Assembly: GCA_029239875.1 (NCBI GenBank)
Contig: JARBUD010000001.1
Location: 62,001 to 126,000 of the forward strand
Direction of reading: 5' to 3'
Source: Xanthobacteraceae bacterium
Lineage (GTDB): Bacteria; Pseudomonadota; Alphaproteobacteria; Rhizobiales; Xanthobacteraceae
Length of the DNA: 64,000 nucleotides
Below are positions 23,041 through 47,334 of the stretch, piece after piece. The notes below the pieces were generated by a model. The model saw only the letters and a list, made by a program, of their open reading frames with translations, searched no databases and had not been told where the DNA came from. Made by a program: the position numbers and the translations under genes. The number at the start of each line of letters is the position of its first letter. Positions within the stretch are counted from its first letter, which is position 1.

Positions 23041-23203
23041 TTGATCCCTGCTGAAAGCGGAGTTTGTGACGACCCCTGAGGATCGCCTCGACAATCCCCT
23101 CAATGGGGCTACGAGGGGAAATGCAGCGGCAACGTTTCCCTCGCCACAAGGCAAAAGACCGGCTGAGCCGACCCCAACCACAACCCCTCACGGCAAAAGA
23201 AAA

Positions 23204-23222
23204 GGGCCGGCAGAGCCGGCCC
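23204..23222 (-). terminator. Strong rho-independent terminator on the minus strand
   Basis: On the minus strand GGGCCGGC and GCCGGCCC form an 8-bp stem with a TCT loop followed by TTTTCTTTT. This is the best intrinsic terminator in the window, yet the only reading frame just before it is the doubtful small one at 23246-23437. Confidence 0.75.
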
Positions 23223-23245
23223 TAAGAGCAATTCGGGGATTGAAC

Positions 23246-23437
23246 CTAGAACATAACGTCAGGCCGGCCCATGAGCGCCGCGGGGGGCTGGGGGGCTGGG
23301 AAACCGATGCGCCACACGAACCGGCCCAACGCTATGGTTAAGAGATTGGAAGCCGCAATTGGCAGCGCAACGGCTGAATTCGGGCAGCTCTGTGATTTCG
23401 GTTGACGAGGCCGTGAACAAGGCGGGGTAAAGCCCAT
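23246..23437 (-). CDS. Possible small protein or non-coding transcript upstream of an orphan terminator
   Basis: A 63-codon frame starting ATG at 23437 and stopping 23 bases before the terminator at 23222. The predicted product contains AASNLLTIALGRFVWRIGF and PAPQPPAALMGRPDVMF; no family is recognised. No good ribosome binding site precedes the ATG, and codon use is not clearly coding. The terminator position argues that something is transcribed leftward here; it could equally be a small RNA of about 200-300 bases. Confidence 0.25.
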   Translation of the reverse strand: MGFTPPCSRPRQPKSQSCPNSAVALPIAASNLLTIALGRFVWRIGFPAPQPPAALMGRPDVMF

Positions 23438-36962: not shown

Positions 36963-39900
36963 ATGAACATGGAGCTCTCGCGCCGCACGTTTCTGAAAAC
37001 GTCGGGTGCGGGGATCGCGGGCACCACGCTCGGTGCCTTCGGCTTCAGCGAGGCGGAGGCCGCCGTGGCCGCCGCCGTGAAGCCGTTCCACCTGGTGAAC
37101 ACCACGGAAGCGCGAAACACCTGCACCTACTGCTCGGTCGCCTGCGGCATCATCATCTATTCCAAGGGCGACCTCAGGAAGGGCGAGAAGGCCGACATCG
37201 TCCACATCGAGGGCGACGCCGACCACCCGACCAATCGCGGCACGCTGTGCCCGAAGGGCGCGGCGCTGCGCGACATCGTCAAGTCCGAGACGCGCCTCAC
37301 CCAGCCCATGGTGCGCAAGTCCGGCTCGGACAAGTTCGAGCCGATCTCCTGGGACGCGGCGCTCGACAAGATCGCCCGCGCCATGAAGGACGATCGCGAC
37401 GCCAACTTCATCGCCAAGAACAAGGACGGCGTGACCGTCAACCGCTGGACGAGCACCGGCTTCCTGGCGGCCTCGGCGACGACCAACGAGACGGCCTTCT
37501 GCACCTACAAGGTGGTGCGTTCCACAGGCATGCTGGGGTTCGACAACCAAGCGCGTGTCTGACACGGCCCGACGGTGGCGAGTCTCGCCCCAACATTCGG
37601 CCGTGGTGCAATGACCAATTCGTGGACCGACATTCGGAACACGGACCTCGTCATCATCATGGGCGGCAATGCCGCCGAAGCGCATCCGTGCGGATTCAAA
37701 TGGGTCACCGAGGCGAAAGCCAACCGTGGCGCCAAGCTCATCGTCGTCGACCCGCGCTTCAACCGCTCGGCGTCGGTGGCGGACTATTACGCGCCGATCC
37801 GCCAGGGCACCGACATCGCCTTCCTGATGGGGCTGATCAACTGGTGCATCAGCAACGACAAGGTGCAGTGGGCCTACACCAAGGCCTTCACCAACGCGAC
37901 GTTCATCGTCAAGGAAGGCTTCGAGTACCAGGACGGCCTGTTCACCGGCTATGACGAGAGCAAGCGCGACTACAATCGCGACACCTGGGAGTACGAGATC
38001 GGGCCGGACGGCTATGCCGTGGTCGACGACACGCTCACCCATCCGCGCTGCGTATGGAACCTGCTGAAGCAGCACGTCTCCGTCTACACGCCGGAGATGG
38101 TGGAGCGCATCTGCGGCACGCCGAAGGAGAAGTTCCTCCACATCGCGCAGATGATCGGCGAGTGCTCCTCGCCGACCAAGACCATGACCTCGATGTACGC
38201 GCTCGGCTGGACCCAGCATTCCAAGGGTGCGCAGAACATCCGCGGCATGGCGATGCTGCAGCTCATCCTCGGCAATATCGGCGTGCGCGGCGGCGGCATG
38301 AATGCGCTGCGCGGCCATTCCAACATCCAGGGGCTGACCGATATCGGCCTGCTCTCCAACTCGCTGCCCGGCTATCTCAACCTGCCGACCGACAAGGAGA
38401 CGGACATCAACGTCTACATGTCGACCCGCGGCTTCAAGCCGCTGCGGCCGAACCAGATGAGCTACTGGCAGAACTACAGGAAGTTCTTCGTCAGCTTCAT
38501 GAAGTCCATGTACGGCTCCGCCGCCACGGCGGAGAACAACTGGGCCTATGACTACCTGCCCAAGCTCGACGTGCCGAGCTACGACATCCTCCGCATGTTC
38601 GACCTGATGAAGCAGGGGAAGATCAACGTCTACTTCTGCCAGGGCTTCAATCCGCTGCAGGCCTTCCCCAACAAGGCCAAGCTCGCGGAGGGGCTGTCGA
38701 AGCTCAAGCTGCTCGTGGTCATGGACCCGCTGCAGACCGAGACCGCCCGGTTCTGGGAGGATCACGGCGTCTTCAACAAGGCGACCCCCGCCAGCATCCA
38801 GACCGAAGTCATCCAGCTGCCCACCACCTGCTTCGCGGAGGACGAGGGCTCGCTGGTCAATTCCGGCCGCTGGCTGCAATGGCACTGGCCGGGCGGCTCG
38901 CCTCCCGGCGAGGCGAAGCACGACACCTGGATCATGTCGCAGATCTTCCTGCGGCTGAAGGCGCTCTACGCCAAGGAGGGCGGGGCCTTCCCCGATCCGA
39001 TCCTCAATCTGAGCTGGAACTACAAGGACCCCGGCGAGCCCTCGCCGGAGGAGCTCGCCAAGGAGATGAACGGCTCGGCGCTGGTCGACGTGCTCGACCC
39101 GGTCGACCCGACCAAGAAGGTGCTCGAGGCGGGCAAGCTGGTCTCCGGCTTCGGCGTGCTGCGCGACGACGGCACCACTGCGGCCGGCTGCTGGATCTAT
39201 TCCGGCAGCTATACCGAGGCCGGCAACATGATGGCGCGCCGGGACAATTCCGACCCGGACGCCACCGGCGCCTATCTCAAATGGGCGTTCGCCTGGCCGG
39301 CGAACCGGCGCATCCTCTACAACCGCGCCTCCTGCGACCTCGACGGCAAGCCGTGGGATCCCTCACGCAAGCTGATCGAGTGGGACGGCTCGAAATGGAC
39401 CGGCTACGACGTGCCGGACATCGCGCCGACCGCCAAGCCGCAGGACGTCGGCCCCTTCATCATGAATGCGGAGGGCACGGGACGCCTGTTCGCCCGCAAG
39501 ATGATGCGGGACGGGCCGTTCCCGGTGCATTACGAGCCGTTCGAGAGCCCGGTCGCCAACGTCATCGCGCCGAAGATCGTCGGCAACCCGGTGGCGCGCG
39601 TGTTCCCGGACGACTGGAAGCAGTTCGCCAAGACCGGCACGCCGGACTTCCCCTATGCGGCGACCACCTACCGCCTCACCGAGCACTTCCACTACTGGAC
39701 CAAGAACAACCACGTGAACGCGGTCCTGCAGCCACAGCAATTCGTCGAGATCTCCGAGGAATTGGCGCGGGAGAAGGGCATCGAGAAGGGCGGCTGGGCG
39801 CGGGTGTGGTCGATACGCGGCGAGATTCTCGCCAAGGCGGTGGTCACCAAGCGCATCAAGCCGATGACCATCGACGGCAAGACCGTCCATGTCGTCGGCA

Positions 39901-40049
39901 TCCCCATCCACTGGGGCTTCGTCGGTGCCGCCCGCAAGGGCTTCCCGGCGAACGTGCTGACCCCCTTCGTGGGCGACGCGAACATCGAGACGCCGGAGTT
40001 CAAGGCGTTCCTCGTCAATATCGAAGCGTCCACCGGACCGGTAGCGTAG
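36963..40049 (+). CDS. fdnG: Formate dehydrogenase-N/O-type alpha subunit, selenocysteine-containing
   Basis: One gene of 1028 residues with an in-frame TGA at codon 200 read as selenocysteine; the context ARV-Sec-HGPTVASLAPTFGRG is the same as in Escherichia coli FdnG/FdoG. The N-terminus has a Tat signal (SRRTFLKTSG), then a [4Fe-4S] site (Cys54, Cys57, Cys61, Cys96), molybdopterin domains and MGGNAAEAHPCGFKWV. It oxidises formate to CO2 on the outer face of the inner membrane and passes electrons through FdnH and FdnI to quinone. GGGAGG precedes the ATG. An automatic caller would split it at the TGA into 199- and 824-codon pieces. Confidence 0.96.
37560..37606 (+). promoter_or_regulatory. 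SECIS element and UGA selenocysteine codon in fdnG
   Basis: The TGA (37560-37562) is followed at once by CACGGCC, which pairs perfectly with GGCCGTG at 37599-37605. An upper stem GGCGA/TCGCC (37577-37589) closes a small GTC loop, matching the GGUCU-type apex bound by SelB in Escherichia coli fdhF. Position and fold are those of a bacterial SECIS. Confidence 0.88.
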
Positions 40050-40061
40050 GAGGGCGGCGCG

Positions 40062-41063
40062 ATGTTTCCACCTATCCCAAACCCCTCCGTCGCTCCCGAT
40101 GCGGCCAAGCCGCGCTTCGGCGAGAAGGACATCGTCCGCCGCTCCGCTTCTGAGGTCACGCCGCCTGCCGAACGGCTGACCGAGGTGGCGAAGCTGATCG
40201 ACGTCACCAAGTGCATCGGCTGCAAGGCCTGCCAGGCCGCGTGCCTGGAATGGAACAACCTCACCGAGGAGATCGGCTTCAACCACGGGGTCTACGAGAA
40301 CCCGATGGACCTGACGCCGAACACCTTCACGCTGATGCGCTTCACCGAGTGGGAGAACCCCGAGACCGAGAATCTCGAATGGCTCATCCGCAAGGACGGC
40401 TGCATGCATTGCGAGGATCCGGGCTGCCTCAAGGCCTGCCCGGCGCCGGGCGCCATCGTGCAGTATTCCAACGGCATCGTGGACTTCCAGCACGCCAACT
40501 GCATCGGCTGCGGCTACTGCATCAAGGGCTGTCCTTTCAACATCCCGCGCATCTCCAAGGTCGACCACACGGCCTACAAGTGCACGCTGTGCTCGGACCG
40601 CGTGGCGGTGGGCCAGGGCCCGGCCTGCCAGAAGGCCTGCCCGACCCAGGCCATCGTCTTCGGCACCAAGCAGGAGATGAAGGACTGGGCCGACTTCCGC
40701 ATCAAGGACCTGAAGTCGCGCGGCTTCGACAATGCCGGCCTCTATGACCCGCAGGGGGTGGGCGGCACGCATGTGATGTATGTGCTGCACCATGCCGACA
40801 CGCCGTCCATCTATGCCGGCCTGCCGGACAACCCGACCATCTCGCCGATCGTCGACGCCTGGAAGGGCGTGACGAAATATGTCGGCCTCGCGGTGATGGG
40901 CTTCGCCGCCGCGGCGGGCTTCCTGCACTACGTCGTCGCCGGGCCGAACAAGGTCTCGGCCGAGGACGAGGAGAACGCCGAGAAGCTCACCGAGGGCACG
41001 GCGCCTCCGCCGCCCGACCCGGCGCAGAGCCAGGGCAACACGCAGCACGGGAGTACGCCATGA
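40062..41063 (+). CDS. fdnH: Formate dehydrogenase beta (iron-sulfur) subunit
   Basis: A 333-residue electron-transfer subunit with four [4Fe-4S] cysteine groups: [47 protein letters not shown] and [21 protein letters not shown] single membrane anchor near the C-terminus ([20 protein letters not shown]) is followed by a polar Pro/Gln tail. It carries electrons from the selenoprotein to cytochrome b. It starts 12 bases after fdnG and overlaps fdnI by four bases (ATGA). Confidence 0.96.
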
Positions 41064-41773
41064 CCACGGCCTACGACCACAAGCCCGAGACGCCGGACGA
41101 TGTCGAGCCCGGCGACGCCGTGCATCCCGGCCACCCGGTGACGGTGGACCGCTACACGGTCGGCGCGCGCATCAACCACTGGATCACCGCCACCAGCCTG
41201 GTGCTGCTGGCGCTGTCCGGCATGGCGCTGTTCACGCCGAGGCTGTTCTTCCTCACCAGCCTGTTCGGCGGCGGACAGTGGACGCGCGCCATCCATCCGT
41301 GGATCGGCGTCGTCCTGTTCTTCTCCTTCCTGCTGCTGTTCGTACGCTTCTTCAAGGCCAACCTGCCGGCGCGGGAGGACGTCACCTGGGTGGCGCATTC
41401 GGCCGACCTGCTGGCAGGGCGCGAGGAGAAGATGCCGGAGGTCGGCAAGTACAATGCCGGCCAGAAATTCGTGTTCTGGTCGATGTCCGGCCTCATCATC
41501 GTGCTGATCGCCAGCGGCGTGGTGATGTGGGACCAGTACTTCTACGACCTCACCACCATCGAGCAGAAGCGCATCGCCATCCTCGTCCACGCGATCGCGG
41601 CGGTGTGCATCATCTGCGTGTGGATCATCCACGTCTACGCCGCCATCTGGGTGAAGGGCACCATCGGCGCCATGACCCGCGGCAAGGTGACCGGCGGCTG
41701 GGCATGGCGCCACCACCGCAAATGGCTGCGCGAGCTGGTGGGCAAGAAGCCGCCGCGCGCGCCAGCGGAATGA
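41060..41773 (+). CDS. fdnI: Formate dehydrogenase gamma subunit, cytochrome b556
   Basis: A 237-residue membrane dihaem cytochrome b with four hydrophobic segments ([71 protein letters not shown]) and histidines placed for haem binding (INHWITA, AIHPWIG, LVHAIAA, WIIHVYA). It passes electrons from FdnH to the quinone pool. The start overlaps fdnH. A 9-bp hairpin follows 20 bases after the stop. Confidence 0.95.
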
Positions 41774-41816: not shown

Positions 41817-41916
41817 GCCGCCCCATATCCAGACCACCCCCGGGGGTGGCCCGCCGCTCCCGGCGGCTTGACCGAGATCGCGTCACCACGTGGCCCGTGC
41901 GGTTCGTGAGGAAAGT

Positions 41917-42828
41917 ATGTCCGCTGAGCTTCAGCCCGATCCCACTGTGATCGGCAACGTCTCCACCCCGCCCTTCGCGGTTCTCCCCGACCCTTCGACG
42001 CTGTTCGCCACGCGGGCCGATAGGCTCAGAACCTATGCGGCGGTGAGCCCGCTCAAGCCCTATCTCGACTTCGTCGCCGGCCTCGTCGAGGCGCAGGGGA
42101 CAATCGTGCCCGGACTGCCGCCGGTCGAGCTGCCGGACGCGGAATCCGTCGAGCGTGCCCGCTCCTTCGAGATGCCGCCGCTCGACCGCTCCAACTTCAC
42201 CCTCGACGACACGGTGGAAGCGACGCTCGACGCACTGTTCGACGCCGCGGCAAACGTCGCCATGCCGGACGAGGCGGGCGAGGCGCTCACCCGCGTGCGC
42301 CTCGCCGACGGCGTGCAGCGCGCGCAGATGGTGCGCGACGTGCTCGCCCACGCCATGCCGATGGAGGCGCTGGCCGAGCATGTCTATGTCGCGAGCGCCC
42401 TTCAGGTGCATTTCGCCCGCCTCGCCGCCGGCCTCGACCCGAAGCGGCTGGTGCCGGTCGGCGACGGCGTCTGCCCGGCCTGCGGCGGCCCGCCGGTCGC
42501 CTCGCTGATCGTCGAATGGCCGAACGCCCACGGCAACCGCTTCTGCGCCTGCTCGCTCTGCTCCACGCTGTGGAACTATGTCCGCATCCGCTGCTGCTCC
42601 TGCGGCTCGACCAAGGGCATCGGCTATCAGGAGATCGAGGACAGCCCCGGCACCATCAAGGCCGAGACCTGCGACGAGTGCCGCACCTATGTGAAGGTGA
42701 TGTACCAGAACAAGGACGTCACCATCGAGCCGGTGGCGGACGACATCGGCACGCTGGCGCTGGACCTGATGATGCGCGAGGGGCCGTACCGCCGCGCCGC
42801 CTTCAACCCGTTCCTGCTCGGCTATTGA
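41917..42828 (+). CDS. fdhE: Formate dehydrogenase accessory protein FdhE
   Basis: A 303-residue rubredoxin-like cytoplasmic protein needed for formate dehydrogenase maturation. The family CxxC pairs are present: VCPACGGPPVAS, FCACSLCSTLWNYVRIRCCS with CGSTKG, and ETCDECRTYVKVM. ATG 41917 follows GAGGAAAG; a GTG at 41890 would add nine unsupported residues. It lies between the structural fdn genes and the selenocysteine genes. No fdhD, the sulfur-transfer partner, is in the window. Confidence 0.93.
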   Translation: MSAELQPDPTVIGNVSTPPFAVLPDPSTLFATRADRLRTYAAVSPLKPYLDFVAGLVEAQGTIVPGLPPVELPDAESVERARSFEMPPLDRSNFTLDDTVEATLDALFDAAANVAMPDEAGEALTRVRLADGVQRAQMVRDVLAHAMPMEALAEHVYVASALQVHFARLAAGLDPKRLVPVGDGVCPACGGPPVASLIVEWPNAHGNRFCACSLCSTLWNYVRIRCCSCGSTKGIGYQEIEDSPGTIKAETCDECRTYVKVMYQNKDVTIEPVADDIGTLALDLMMREGPYRRAAFNPFLLGY

Positions 42829-42838
42829 GGGCGCGGCC

Positions 42839-44266
42839 ATGGATGCCGGACCCCGCCCCTCGCTCCGCGACCTGCCCTCCGTCGACCAGGTGCTGAAGAC
42901 GCCGGCGGGCCTCCACGCCGCCGAGCGCTTCGGCAGCGCGCCGGCCACCGCCGCCATCCGCGCCGCGCTCGAGGAGGTGCGCGCCTGCGTCCTCGCCGGC
43001 CAGCTCGCCGCCCTGCCCTCGGCCGACCATGTCGCGTCCGCCGCCATGGACACGCTGGAACGCGGCGCCCGCTCGAGCCTCCGTCCGGTCTTCAACCTCA
43101 CCGGCACGGTGCTGCACACCAATCTCGGCCGCGCCTTGCTGGCGGAGGAAGCCGTCGCGGCGGCGACCGCCGCCATGCGCTCCGCCGTGGCGCTGGAATT
43201 CGACCTCTCGTCGGGCAAGCGAGGCGAGCGGGACGACCATGTGCGCGAGCTGCTGATCGAGCTGACCGGGGCGGAGGACGCGACCGTCGTCAACAACAAC
43301 GCCGCCGCCGTGCTGCTGGTGCTGAACACGCTGGGCCTGGCCAAGGAAGCCGTCGTCTCGCGCGGCGAGCTGATCGAGATCGGCGGCGCCTTCCGCATGC
43401 CCGACATCATGGCCCGCGCCGGGGTGAAGCTGGTCGAGGTCGGCACGACCAACCGCACCCACCCGAAGGACTATGCCGGCGCGCTCACCGCCGAGACCGG
43501 GCTGGTGCTGAAGGTCCATACCTCGAATTACCGCATCGAGGGCTTCACCAAGGAAGTGCCGGCGCGCGAGCTGGCCGAGATCGCCCATGCGCGCGACGTG
43601 CCGCTGGTCAACGACCTCGGCTCGGGCACGCTCATCGACCTCGTCCGCCTCGGCCTCACCCACGAGCCGACCGTGCGGGAGGCGGTGGCTGAAGGAGCCG
43701 ACATCGTCACCTTCTCCGGCGACAAGCTGCTCGGCGGGCCGCAGACCGGCTTCATCGTCGGCAGCGCCGCGCTGATCGAGAAGATCAACAGGAACCCGAT
43801 GAAGCGGGCGCTGCGGGTGGACAAGATCCGCCTCGCCGCGCTGGAGGCGACGCTGCGCCTTTACCGCGACCCGGAACGCCTCGCCCATCGCCTGCCGACC
43901 CTGCGGCTGCTGGCGCGGACTCGGGAAGAGATCGCCGCCCGCGCCGCCGATCTCGCCGGGCCGGTGGCCGAAATCCTGGACGGCGCCTTCACCGTCGATG
44001 TGGTCGACTGCGCCAGCCAGATCGGCTCCGGCGCGCTGCCACTGGAGACGCTGCCGAGTGCGGCGCTGGCCATCCGCCCGGCGGGCGAGGCGTCGGGCGG
44101 GCAGCTCAACGCGCTCGCCGGCGCGCTGCGCGCCCTGCCCATCCCGATCATCGGCCGCATCGCCGAGGGCGCCCTGCTGCTCGATCTGCGCTGCCTCGAG
44201 GACGAGGCCGGCTTCATCGACAGCCTCGATCATATCGATCTGGCGCAACGCGCGGGGCCGTCATGA
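42839..44266 (+). CDS. selA: L-seryl-tRNA(Sec) selenium transferase
   Basis: A 475-residue PLP enzyme that turns seryl-tRNA-Sec into selenocysteinyl-tRNA using selenophosphate from SelD. The N-terminal tRNA-binding helices ([16 protein letters not shown]) precede the core with [49 protein letters not shown] and the PLP lysine in [17 protein letters not shown]. The start follows fdhE by 10 bases and the end overlaps selB by four, so fdhE-selA-selB are coupled. Confidence 0.96.
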
Positions 44267-46362
44267 TCATCGGTACGGCCGGGCATATCGACCACGGCAA
44301 GACCGCGCTGGTCGGCGCGCTCACCGGCGTCGATACCGACCGGCTGAAGGAGGAGAAGGCCCGCGGCATCTCCATCGACCTCGGCTTCGCCTATCTGCCC
44401 ACCGACGCCGGCACGCTCGGCTTCATCGACGTGCCCGGCCACGAGAAGTTCATCCACACCATGCTGGCGGGGGCCAGCGGCATCGACTTCGCACTGCTCA
44501 TCGTCGCCGCCGATGACGGGGTGATGCCGCAGACACGCGAGCACCTCGCGCTGCTCGATCTGCTCGGCATCTCCAGCGGCCTCGTCGCGCTGACCAAGAC
44601 CGACCTCGCCGACGAAGACCGCCGCGCCGAGGTGGAGGCGGAAATCGCCGCGCTGCTGGACGGCACCTCGCTGGAAAGGGCGGAGATCGTGCCGGTCTCG
44701 GCCGTGACCGGCGAGGGGATCGACGATCTGCGCGCCCGGCTCGTCGCGGCGGGGAGGGACTTTTCCGCGCGCGCGGCGGAAGGGCGCTTCCGCCTCGCCG
44801 TCGACCGCTCCTTCACGCTCGCCGGTGCCGGCACGGTGGTGACGGGAACGGTACTGTCCGGACGGGTGAGGGTCGGCGACCAGCTTATAGTGTCGCCCTC
44901 GGGGATAGCGGCGCGCGTGCGCTCCATCCACGCGCAGAACCGCAAGGCCGAGGAAGGCCGCGCCGGTGACCGCTGCGCCCTCAACCTTGCCGGCGAGGGC
45001 GTCTCGCACGAGGCGATCCATCGCGGCGACATGGTGCTCGACGCGGCGCTGCATGCGCCGACCGAGCGCATCGACGCTTCGCTGCGCGTGCTGGCGGGTG
45101 AGCCGAAACCCTTGGGCCAGTGGTTCCCGGTGCGCTTCCATCACGGCTCGGTCGAAGTCGGCGCGCGGCTGGTGCCGCTGTCGGACGATTCGATCCCGCC
45201 CGGCGGCGAGGGGCTGGTGCAGATCGTGCTGGAGCGCCCGATCGCCGCGGCGGCGGGCGACCGCTACGTCATCCGCGACACCTCGGCCCAGCGCACCATC
45301 GGCGGCGGCAAGCTGATCGACCTGCGCGCGCCCGGCCGCAAGCGCCGCACGCCGGAACGCCTCGCCCAGCTCAGGGCGATGGGAGAGCGGGACCCGGACG
45401 CCGCCGTGGCGCTGCTGCTCGCCGGCGAGCCGTTCCATCTCGATCTCTCCGCCTTCGCCCGCGACAGGGCGCTGGGTGTGGAGGCGGCGGCGGGCATCGT
45501 CGAGCGGCTCGGGCTTGTCACGCTCAATGCCGGCGGCACGCTCACCGCGCTCTCGGCCGAGCGCTGGAAGATCTTCCGCACGACGCTGCTCGTCGAGCTC
45601 GAACGCTTCCACGACGCCAATCCCGACCTGCCCGGCATGGGTGCCGAGCGGCTGCGCCTCGCCATCCCGCCGCGGCTGCCGAAGCCGGTCTTCACTGAAG
45701 CGCTGCGGCGCCTCGCCAATGAGGGTGCGCTGGCGCTGGACGGCGCCTGGGTCCGGCTCGCCGGCCACGAGGTGCGCCTCACCCGCGCCGACGAGCTGCT
45801 CTGGGAGCTGATCGAGCCGAAACTGTCCGGCACAGAGCGCTTCCGCCCGCCGCGCGTGCGCGACCTCGCCGGCCTCACCGGCGAGGCGGAGACGGATATT
45901 CGCCGGCTCATGAAATTGCTGAGCCGTATGGGAAGGGTCGACGAGGTGGCGCACGACCACTTCTTCCTGCGCTCGGTGGTCGCCGGCATGGTGGCAATGG
46001 CGCGCGAGCTCGCCGCCGCCGCGCCGGACGGCCAGTTCGCCGCCAGCGCCTTCCGCGACCGCATCGAGCGCGACGAGCACGCGGTCGGGCGCAAGGTGGC
46101 GATCCAGATCCTCGAATTCTTCGACCGGCACGGCGTCACGCTGCGCCGGGGCGATCTGCGCCGCATCAACCCGCACCGGCTGGACCTGTTCGGCGCGATC
46201 GACGACAATGGCCCGGCGACGGCGACGTCGCCGGCATCTGGAAGAGCGTCTCATCCGGTGATGGGACCGGACTTCAAATCCGGGAGGGGCCGCGAGCCGG
46301 TCCTTGGTGGGTTCGACTCCCATTCTCTTCCGCCACCCCCCTCGCCCGGCCGGCCGCGCTGA
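44263..46362 (+). CDS. selB: Selenocysteine-specific elongation factor SelB, reading frame running through selC
   Basis: A GTPase that brings Sec-tRNA to UGA codons with a SECIS. G1 is [20 protein letters not shown]3 [11 protein letters not shown]4 LTKTD; domains II-III follow, then winged-helix repeats that bind SECIS RNA, ending with [20 protein letters not shown] and [11 protein letters not shown] near residue 650, the usual end of SelB. The frame has no stop there and continues 49 codons across the entire tRNA-Sec gene to TGA at 46360-46362, giving 699 codons. The low-complexity tail (ending [10 protein letters not shown]) is therefore tRNA sequence translated. ATG 44263 overlaps the selA stop. 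Confidence 0.93.
46240..46335 (+). tRNA. selC: tRNA-Sec (anticodon TCA)
   Basis: The 96-base gene starts GGAAGAGCGTCTCATCCGG and ends with CTCTTCC, discriminator G and an encoded CCA. It has a 6-bp D stem with four-base loop CGGT, an anticodon stem CCGGA/TCCGG with loop CTTCAAA (anticodon 46274-46276), a long variable arm (GGGCCG-CGAG-CCGGTCC) and a T arm GTGGG-TTCGACT-CCCAT. These are tRNA-Sec features and it aligns with Escherichia coli selC. The eighth acceptor pair is a C-T mismatch. It lies wholly inside the selB reading frame, same strand. Confidence 0.95.
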
Positions 46363-46377
46363 CGCGACCCGCCGGCC
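46348..46377 (+). terminator. Hairpin after selC, at the selB 3' end
   Basis: GGCCGGC pairs with GCCGGCC, with an extra CGCG/CGCG upper stem, a CTGA loop and a four-base bulge. It begins 12 bases after the tRNA CCA and contains the selB stop in its loop side. It separates convergent selB/selC and the GntR gene. Confidence 0.6.
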
Positions 46378-46385
46378 AGCCCGGG

Positions 46386-47186
46386 TCAGTCGGCCGCGGC
46401 CCGGCGGCGGCGGCGCGAGCGGGTCGGCGAGGGCACGTCGCCATCGGCGAAGAGCTGTTCCAGCGTCGCCAGCGCCTGCAGATGGTTCGAGCGGACCAGC
46501 GCCTCGGCGAGCGGGGCGTCGTGCTCCTCGAGGGCGGCGATCAGCTGGACATGGTGCGCCATCGACTTCTCGCGGCGCCGGGGCTGCGACAGCGACAGCC
46601 GGCGCAACCTGAGCGTGCGCAACAGCAGCGAGTCGAGGATGCGCTTGGCCGTGTGGTTGTTGGCGGCGAAGGTCAGCCGGTTGTAGAACTCGACATTGGC
46701 CCAGAGATAGGCGGAAAGGTCCTGCGCCTCATGCGCCGCGCCGAGCTGGCCGACCACCTCGCGCAGCGCGGCGAGGTCGCCCTCGCTGCGCAGCAGCGCC
46801 ACATCCGAGGCGACCGTGCCGAACAGCACCGCGCGCACGCGATAGATCTCGCGCACCTCGCCGATGTCGAGCACCGCCACATGCGGGCGCCGCCGCTGCG
46901 GGATGCGCACCAGCCCCTCCTTCTCCAGGAGCAGCAAGGCCTCGCGGATCGGCGTGCGGCTGGTCTCGTAGCGCTCGGCGAGCTCCACCGAGCTCAAATC
47001 CTCGCCGCTCTGGCGGATATTCTCGATGATCTCGGCGCCGAGCTCGCAGGCGAGGCGCGAGACCAGAGACGGCCGGTCGTGGTGCTCGGCCACGATCCGC
47101 CGCACCACCAGCACCGCGTTGAGGAAAGACGCGGACTGGCTGGACGGCGTCGTCGCGATCCAGGAATCCGCCCGCTCGAGACCCAT
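46386..47186 (-). CDS. GntR-family transcriptional regulator, FCD subfamily
   Basis: A 266-residue regulator with a winged helix at about residues 45-115 (ELGAEIIENIRQSGEDLSSV, LAERYETSRTPIREALLLLE, IPQRRRPHVAVLD) and an FCD ligand domain (FYNRLTFAANN, HHVQLIAALEEHDAP). An atypical 35-residue N-terminal stretch precedes the DNA-binding part and a very basic RSRRRRRAAAD tail ends it. ATG 47186 is used; the frame can also begin at TTG 47195. It is convergent with selB and 148 bases from LacI. By position it could control the oxalate/formate genes, which is inference. Confidence 0.87.
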   Translation of the reverse strand: MGLERADSWIATTPSSQSASFLNAVLVVRRIVAEHHDRPSLVSRLACELGAEIIENIRQSGEDLSSVELAERYETSRTPIREALLLLEKEGLVRIPQRRRPHVAVLDIGEVREIYRVRAVLFGTVASDVALLRSEGDLAALREVVGQLGAAHEAQDLSAYLWANVEFYNRLTFAANNHTAKRILDSLLLRTLRLRRLSLSQPRRREKSMAHHVQLIAALEEHDAPLAEALVRSNHLQALATLEQLFADGDVPSPTRSRRRRRAAAD

Positions 47187-47334
47187 CTTCTCCAAGAGAA
47201 TTGCTGCCTTCTCGCGTTGCGCACCGGCGCGGCCTGCAAAGATATGTCTACAAACAATCTACCCGGACGCCGGCACTCTGTCGACGATCGCGCTGCACGC
47301 AGCGGTAGCAACCCCCATCCCGCCACCTCCGGCT
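47187..47334. other. Intergenic region between LacI and GntR genes
   Basis: About 148 bases with no gene. An AT-rich patch at 47241-47260 (GATATGTCTACAAACAATCT) contains TGTCTACA, which resembles half sites of FCD-type GntR operators and could be an autoregulatory site of the GntR gene. Weak evidence. Confidence 0.25.

Follow-up and report, generated by a model that had tools for sequence, protein, structure and literature searches.

The window analyzed here is a 64,000-nucleotide stretch of a Xanthobacteraceae genome. It contains a same-strand run consisting of fdoGHI, fdhE, selA and selB with selC, the gene for the selenocysteine (Sec) tRNA, at its end. Table 1 presents an overview of these genes and of the features around the selB-selC junction. 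By their arrangement, fdoGHI-fdhE-selA-selB-selC form a probable operon of which selC is the last element.

Table 1. Features of the formate dehydrogenase and selenocysteine genes in the window (positions are those of the window).
Feature	Position	Strand	Remarks
fdoG-type formate dehydrogenase alpha subunit	36963..40049	+	in-frame TGA (Sec) at 37560-37562; TIGR01553, 1173.9 bits (part after the TGA)
SECIS_3 element at the Sec codon	37557..37615	+	RF01989, 88.2 bits
Formate dehydrogenase beta subunit	40062..41063	+	TIGR01582, 468.5 bits
Formate dehydrogenase gamma (cytochrome b) subunit	41060..41773	+	TIGR01583, 181.5 bits
fdhE	41890..42828	+	TIGR01562, 301.8 bits
selA	42839..44266	+	4-nt overlap with the selB start; TIGR00474, 590.2 bits
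selB, selenocysteine-specific elongation factor plus tail	44263..46362	+	699 aa; ORF list, TIGR00475, GTP_EFTU and SelB winged-helix domains
Spacer, SelB LDLFG end to selC	46195..46239	+	15 codons, open
selC, tRNA-Sec	46240..46335	+	96 nt, CCA encoded; read as 32 codons of the selB frame
Post-tRNA tail	46336..46362	+	8 codons plus TGA stop
GntR/FCD regulator	46386..47195	-	occupies the place of the coupled ORF of many relatives

The selB frame runs from 44263 without a stop until a TGA at 46360-46362, and the whole of tRNA-Sec is nested within it, in frame and on the same strand. This much was already claimed in an earlier note on this DNA, and it is confirmed by the open reading frame (ORF) list, by ARAGORN and by Rfam. 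ARAGORN finds a single tRNA in the window, a tRNA-SeC with anticodon tca and an encoded CCA, at the selC position of Table 1; the Rfam tRNA-Sec model RF01852 scores it at 73.7 bits against a gathering score of 47. The TIGR00475 model covers residues 1-634 of SelB (411.9 bits), and the last position of the conserved C-terminus, LDLFG, is 46194. The same note had placed the end of SelB near 46212, slightly later than the motif actually ends, and had described a 49-residue tail that includes 32 tRNA codons, which is correct when counted from 46213 (9 + 32 + 8 codons). The first base of tRNA-Sec coincides with codon position 1 of selB, and the 96 nt of the tRNA, a multiple of three, are read as 32 residues that start with Gly and finish with Pro, as in the nested genes of Mukai 2021, whose tRNAs mostly measure 96 or 93 nt.

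Three matches in the window's own assembly exceed the Rfam tRNA-Sec cut-off, and seven others are weaker. Aside from selC, the other two are tRNA-Ser, leaving no second tRNA-Sec among the matches above that cut-off. The genome also has an alphaproteobacterial tmRNA (314.1 bits). A sigma-70 consensus scan for a promoter or terminator between 45700 and 46500 returned none, a result of little power given that about none are expected in shuffled sequence as well.

Nesting of tRNA-Sec in selB is not new, nor is the idea that it yields a nonstop message; both have been in print since 2021, when Mukai described the arrangement in diverse Alphaproteobacteria and put forward the same "SelB or tRNA" hypothesis (Int J Mol Sci 22:4605; PMC8124441). 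That study also reported frequent overlap with a next ORF (ORF1 or ORF2), partial overlaps and losses in some groups, and it put forward coupling to the next ORF as something that the overlap may serve. The account is repeated in reviews of 2022 and 2026. The window shares with the published cases a whole 96-nt tRNA-Sec with CCA inside a same-strand selB ORF, an extension whose tRNA part opens with Gly (GGA) and closes with Pro (CCA), and an adjoining fdoGHI-selAB cluster with a Sec formate dehydrogenase. Unlike many of them, although the trait is not universal there, it has no ORF overlapping the selB stop, and the gene that follows is encoded on the minus strand. The window is a further instance of the nesting, one in which no coupled gene was found. 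The text of Mukai 2021 does not contain the word Ancylobacter, the genus of the window's named close relatives. Two related situations are also on record. In Dyella/Luteibacter and in a Nitrospirae lineage the overlap is partial, with the selB stop inside tRNA-Sec (PMC8124441); this resembles 6 of the 30 genomes of the window's genus, whereas the window's own selB passes wholly through. In animal mitochondria, as related in PMC8124441, the tRNA-Lys of Armadillidium is nested in cox1 and its excision removes the overlapping end of the mRNA; as far as that account goes the case is like the window in that tRNA excision would take the end off an overlapping mRNA, and unlike it in belonging to an organelle genome.

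Taken alone, the open frame of the window is weak evidence, its chance being about 0.4-0.5. When the letters of the spacer are shuffled, the share of trials with an open frame is 0.74, 0.75 or 0.00, depending on which of the three registers is taken; estimated from base composition alone, the chance is 0.39. Across 134 junctions, shuffled spacers with a random register yield a mean open chance of 0.61. The relatives are more informative. The comparison set comprised 187 loci, of which 30 came from the window's genus, 77 from elsewhere in its family (found in 248 genomes drawn out of the larger family, one listed match being left out) and 80 from named genomes (the best 80 of 171). Seven loci were skipped (six without a selB C-terminus in the stretch examined and one without a tRNA) and 41 were duplicates. 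Among the resulting 139 distinct selB-selC junctions, selB runs through the tRNA in 118, ends inside selC in 7, ends before it in 13 and stays open to the contig end in 1. The overlap is accordingly common in relatives; the outcome that the earlier note had named as counting against it, that the selB of relatives would always stop before selC, is not what the comparison returned.

The through junctions share a single register, 0, in all but one case (117 of the 118). The same 118 tRNAs are also open in frame 1 (99/118) and in frame 2 (115/118), so an open tRNA would not by itself dictate the register, and its conservation indicates that the nested frame is more than chance. The sole through junction in another register (L043, frame 2) has the downstream ORF described below, and its selB continues 136 nt beyond the tRNA. 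To look beyond the family, 385 genomes were taken from the class as a whole; 55 of them, the window's included, have tRNA-Sec at the cut-off used. For the other 54 loci, 25 lack a selB C-terminus in the stretch examined and in 1 it lies on the opposite strand; with selB queries taken from the first set and flanks of only 1.5 kb at some loci, divergent or distant SelB may have been missed. Of the 28 junctions that remain, 25 end before selC, 2 run through and 1 ends inside. The registers of those 25 are spread 6, 9 and 10, as expected where nothing holds the register.

The conserved register goes together with a gene located 3' of selC. A profile search extending up to 1500 nt downstream showed that 76 of the 139 junctions are followed by a member of one ORF family, about 150-170 aa long. 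In 60 of the 76 the start codon, as assigned by script, overlaps the selB stop, mostly as ATGA, and these overlapping ORFs start 14-143 nt past the tRNA. Every ORF-bearing junction is through (76/76); among the 63 ORF-free junctions, 61 are assessable, 41 of them through and 20 not, and at the other 2 the DNA downstream is too short. The 60 ORFs that overlap a selB stop served as the training set of the profile, which may for that reason favor matches at through junctions. Two of the 28 junctions outside the family bear the ORF even though selB ends before selC. In one (L205) the match starts 51 nt past the tRNA, and it is counted as a real counterexample; in the other (L235) the matches start at least 708 nt past the tRNA. 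With both sets pooled, 76 of 78 ORF-bearing junctions are through. The dependence of register on the ORF, as counted here, is absent from the text of Mukai 2021, and neither this dependence nor an experiment on the purpose of the overlap was found in the open-licence literature searched.

As to what the ORF encodes, a Pfam/NCBIfam scan of two members gave only weak matches far below the cut-offs. An AlphaFold model is predicted to be all-helical (pLDDT 90.4, pTM 0.76), and comparison of this predicted fold with the PDB gave no match at E <= 0.001. Members of the family often end in PETPLVDF or a similar motif, one example being L073:6064-6516. The family is presumably the same as ORF1 or ORF2 of Mukai.

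The link between register and ORF can also be followed through changes in spacer length. A SelB tree of 134 rows was used, after pruning of L045, L169, L191, L143 and L042; it is a quick tree with several long branches. On it, 47 length changes fall in ORF-bearing lineages, 46 of them preserving the register and 1 shifting it, compared with 12 preserving and 9 shifting among the 21 in ORF-free lineages (Fisher p 5e-5). Without a penalty on regain of the overlap, the ORF-free count becomes 11:8, from 19 changes out of an open register, and p becomes 1e-4. The contrast leaves out five changes, 2 of them preserving and 3 shifting, that map to branches on which the ORF disappears. Disjoint nearest pairs give 32:1 with the ORF and 10:9 without it (p 2e-4), and the ORF-free pairs within the genus give 7:7. 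An independent-pairs test confined to supported branches had too few informative pairs and was not significant; on average 2.3 of the 8 pairs pointed the expected way and 0 the opposite way. Plain Fitch parsimony was dropped because it required the overlap to be regained within the genus, and was replaced by the reconstructions with and without the regain penalty. The Fitch version had placed overlap losses on 4 ORF-free branches, 0 ORF-bearing branches and 2 ambiguous ones, with p 0.03 when judged by branch length. Its counts of length changes (preserving/shifting/ambiguous) were 33/1/1 with the ORF and 6/2/3 without. The changes in ORF-free lineages still lean to multiples of three (12/21 against one third, p 0.02), and since 41 ORF-free junctions are also still through, some constraint or simple lag remains in these lineages.

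The spacer itself does not resemble a coding region. In 75 ORF-bearing through junctions its GC content by codon position is 0.69/0.61/0.65, compared with 0.74/0.44/0.81 in the preceding SelB codons; in 40 ORF-free through junctions the values are 0.77/0.64/0.64 and 0.78/0.45/0.84. At 14 junctions that are not through the spacer is much alike (0.70/0.61/0.64). The GC3 signature of coding sequence is thus absent from the spacers of relatives, which speaks against the SelB tail as a coding region and suggests that the tail acts as a register to be kept rather than as a conserved protein.

Turning to the window's genus, to which named Ancylobacter species belong by identical junctions, the overlap appears to be loosening. 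Sorted by outcome, 18 of its 30 junctions are through, 6 end inside selC and 6 before it; 12 of the 30 genomes have therefore lost the overlap or its register, yet they keep tRNA-Sec. The losses occurred several times within the genus and in differing ways. At E <= 1e-5 the ORF family is found in one of the 30 genomes (G008), beside its selC, and at the same threshold it was not found in the window's own genome. L035, the relative placed closest to the window on the tree, has about 1 kb inserted between two copies of the sequence of window positions 46237-46286, a stretch that includes the 5' half of the tRNA; selB stops soon after the tRNA remnant, and the complete tRNA-Sec is found on the far side of the insert. 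With both ends counted, the region spans about 460-1550 of L035; the insert has lower GC and is bounded by a 50-bp direct repeat. This arrangement suggests that tRNA-Sec served as an integration site and was rebuilt. A selB with a tRNA-Sec remnant is also known from Sinorhizobium meliloti pSymA (PMC8124441), which resembles L035, where a 5' half tRNA remnant ends selB; the window itself is intact.

Considering all of the above, it is judged likely, with modest confidence, that the register of the nested selB-selC pair was held over evolution mainly by coupling to the downstream ORF and that the window carries an inherited relic of that arrangement. If selC is carried on the selAB transcript, ribosomes finishing selB could continue through the tRNA sequence to the stop just beyond it. 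Alternatively, RNase P and the 3' tRNA nucleases could cut selC out and, because selC lies inside the selB frame, this processing would remove the selB stop and leave a nonstop selB mRNA for rescue by tmRNA. Where the ORF is present, the stop just past the tRNA mostly overlaps its start, and ribosomes that cross selC may start the ORF by translational coupling or may keep its mRNA translated. Such coupling probably held the register. In the window's genus the ORF would have been lost and the overlap would be decaying, and the 49-residue tail of this strain is most likely a tolerated, inherited relic without a function of its own. More tentatively, and as something possible but short of probable, ribosomes in the Alphaproteobacteria that keep the ORF could routinely translate an entire tRNA gene to reach the start beyond it, so that tRNA-Sec maturation would compete with translation and set the output of SelB and of an all-helical partner of the selenocysteine system, with the genus showing this coupling coming apart. 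Reading a tRNA gene as protein code would put one RNA to two conflicting uses. The tie of register to ORF offers a clear way to separate translational coupling from SelB/tRNA balance, and the genus, in which strains variously keep, shift or lose the overlap, supplies natural material for comparison.

The main competitor, put forward both by Mukai (PMC8124441) and in the earlier note, is a selected switch in which each transcript gives either SelB or tRNA-Sec, keeping SelB at or below the level of Sec-tRNA-Sec. Parts of this reading stand: selC does lie at the end of the same-strand selAB run, a given transcript could yield one product or the other but not both if it is the selAB message that supplies selC, the assembly's matches above the cut-off include no further tRNA-Sec, a tmRNA is present in the genome, and the overlap is kept in 41 of 61 assessable ORF-free junctions. 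Balance as the reason for the overlap fared less well, as the register follows the downstream ORF and decays without it. A switch predicts neither this dependence nor the finding that 12 of the 30 genus genomes have lost overlap or register while still keeping tRNA-Sec, and since excision of selC would destroy a stop inside or beyond it in any register, the keeping of one register goes unexplained. A selected switch is therefore considered rather unlikely. Neutral overlap, in which the stop was lost by chance in a GC-rich genome, selC is transcribed or processed independently and the extension has no role in any lineage, draws on the chance of an open frame given above (about 0.4-0.5 for the window alone and 0.61 on average over the 134 junctions). 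Such chance would hardly put 117 of the 118 through junctions in one register, 0, or give a 46:1 excess of register-preserving length changes in ORF-bearing lineages, and no promoter-like site for an independent selC was seen in 45700-46500 by the sigma-70 scan, with its little power; this reading seems a good deal less credible than an even bet, and unlikely overall, slightly more so than the switch.

A functional role of the C-terminal extension within SelB is very improbable. Its tRNA-derived part is conserved among nested junctions, but the tRNA itself would lead one to expect this, the spacer and tail are free in length and sequence, the spacer is without the coding GC signature, and relatives that lack the full tail keep both SelB and tRNA-Sec. 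A sequencing or assembly error concealing a stop codon could be entertained for a draft assembly of 71 contigs; with the same register read through in 17 other genomes of the genus and at 99 junctions outside it, an error of this kind is hardly conceivable.

Three genomes of the family (G168, G099 and G087) have two tRNA-Sec matches each, with a second selB alongside (L045, L191 and L169) that falls on a long branch in the tree, which suggests that they hold a second, divergent or decaying selenocysteine locus. Elsewhere in the window, positions 23200-23417 on the minus strand match the Rfam model of the Bradyrhizobiaceae sRNA BjrC174 at 64.8 bits.
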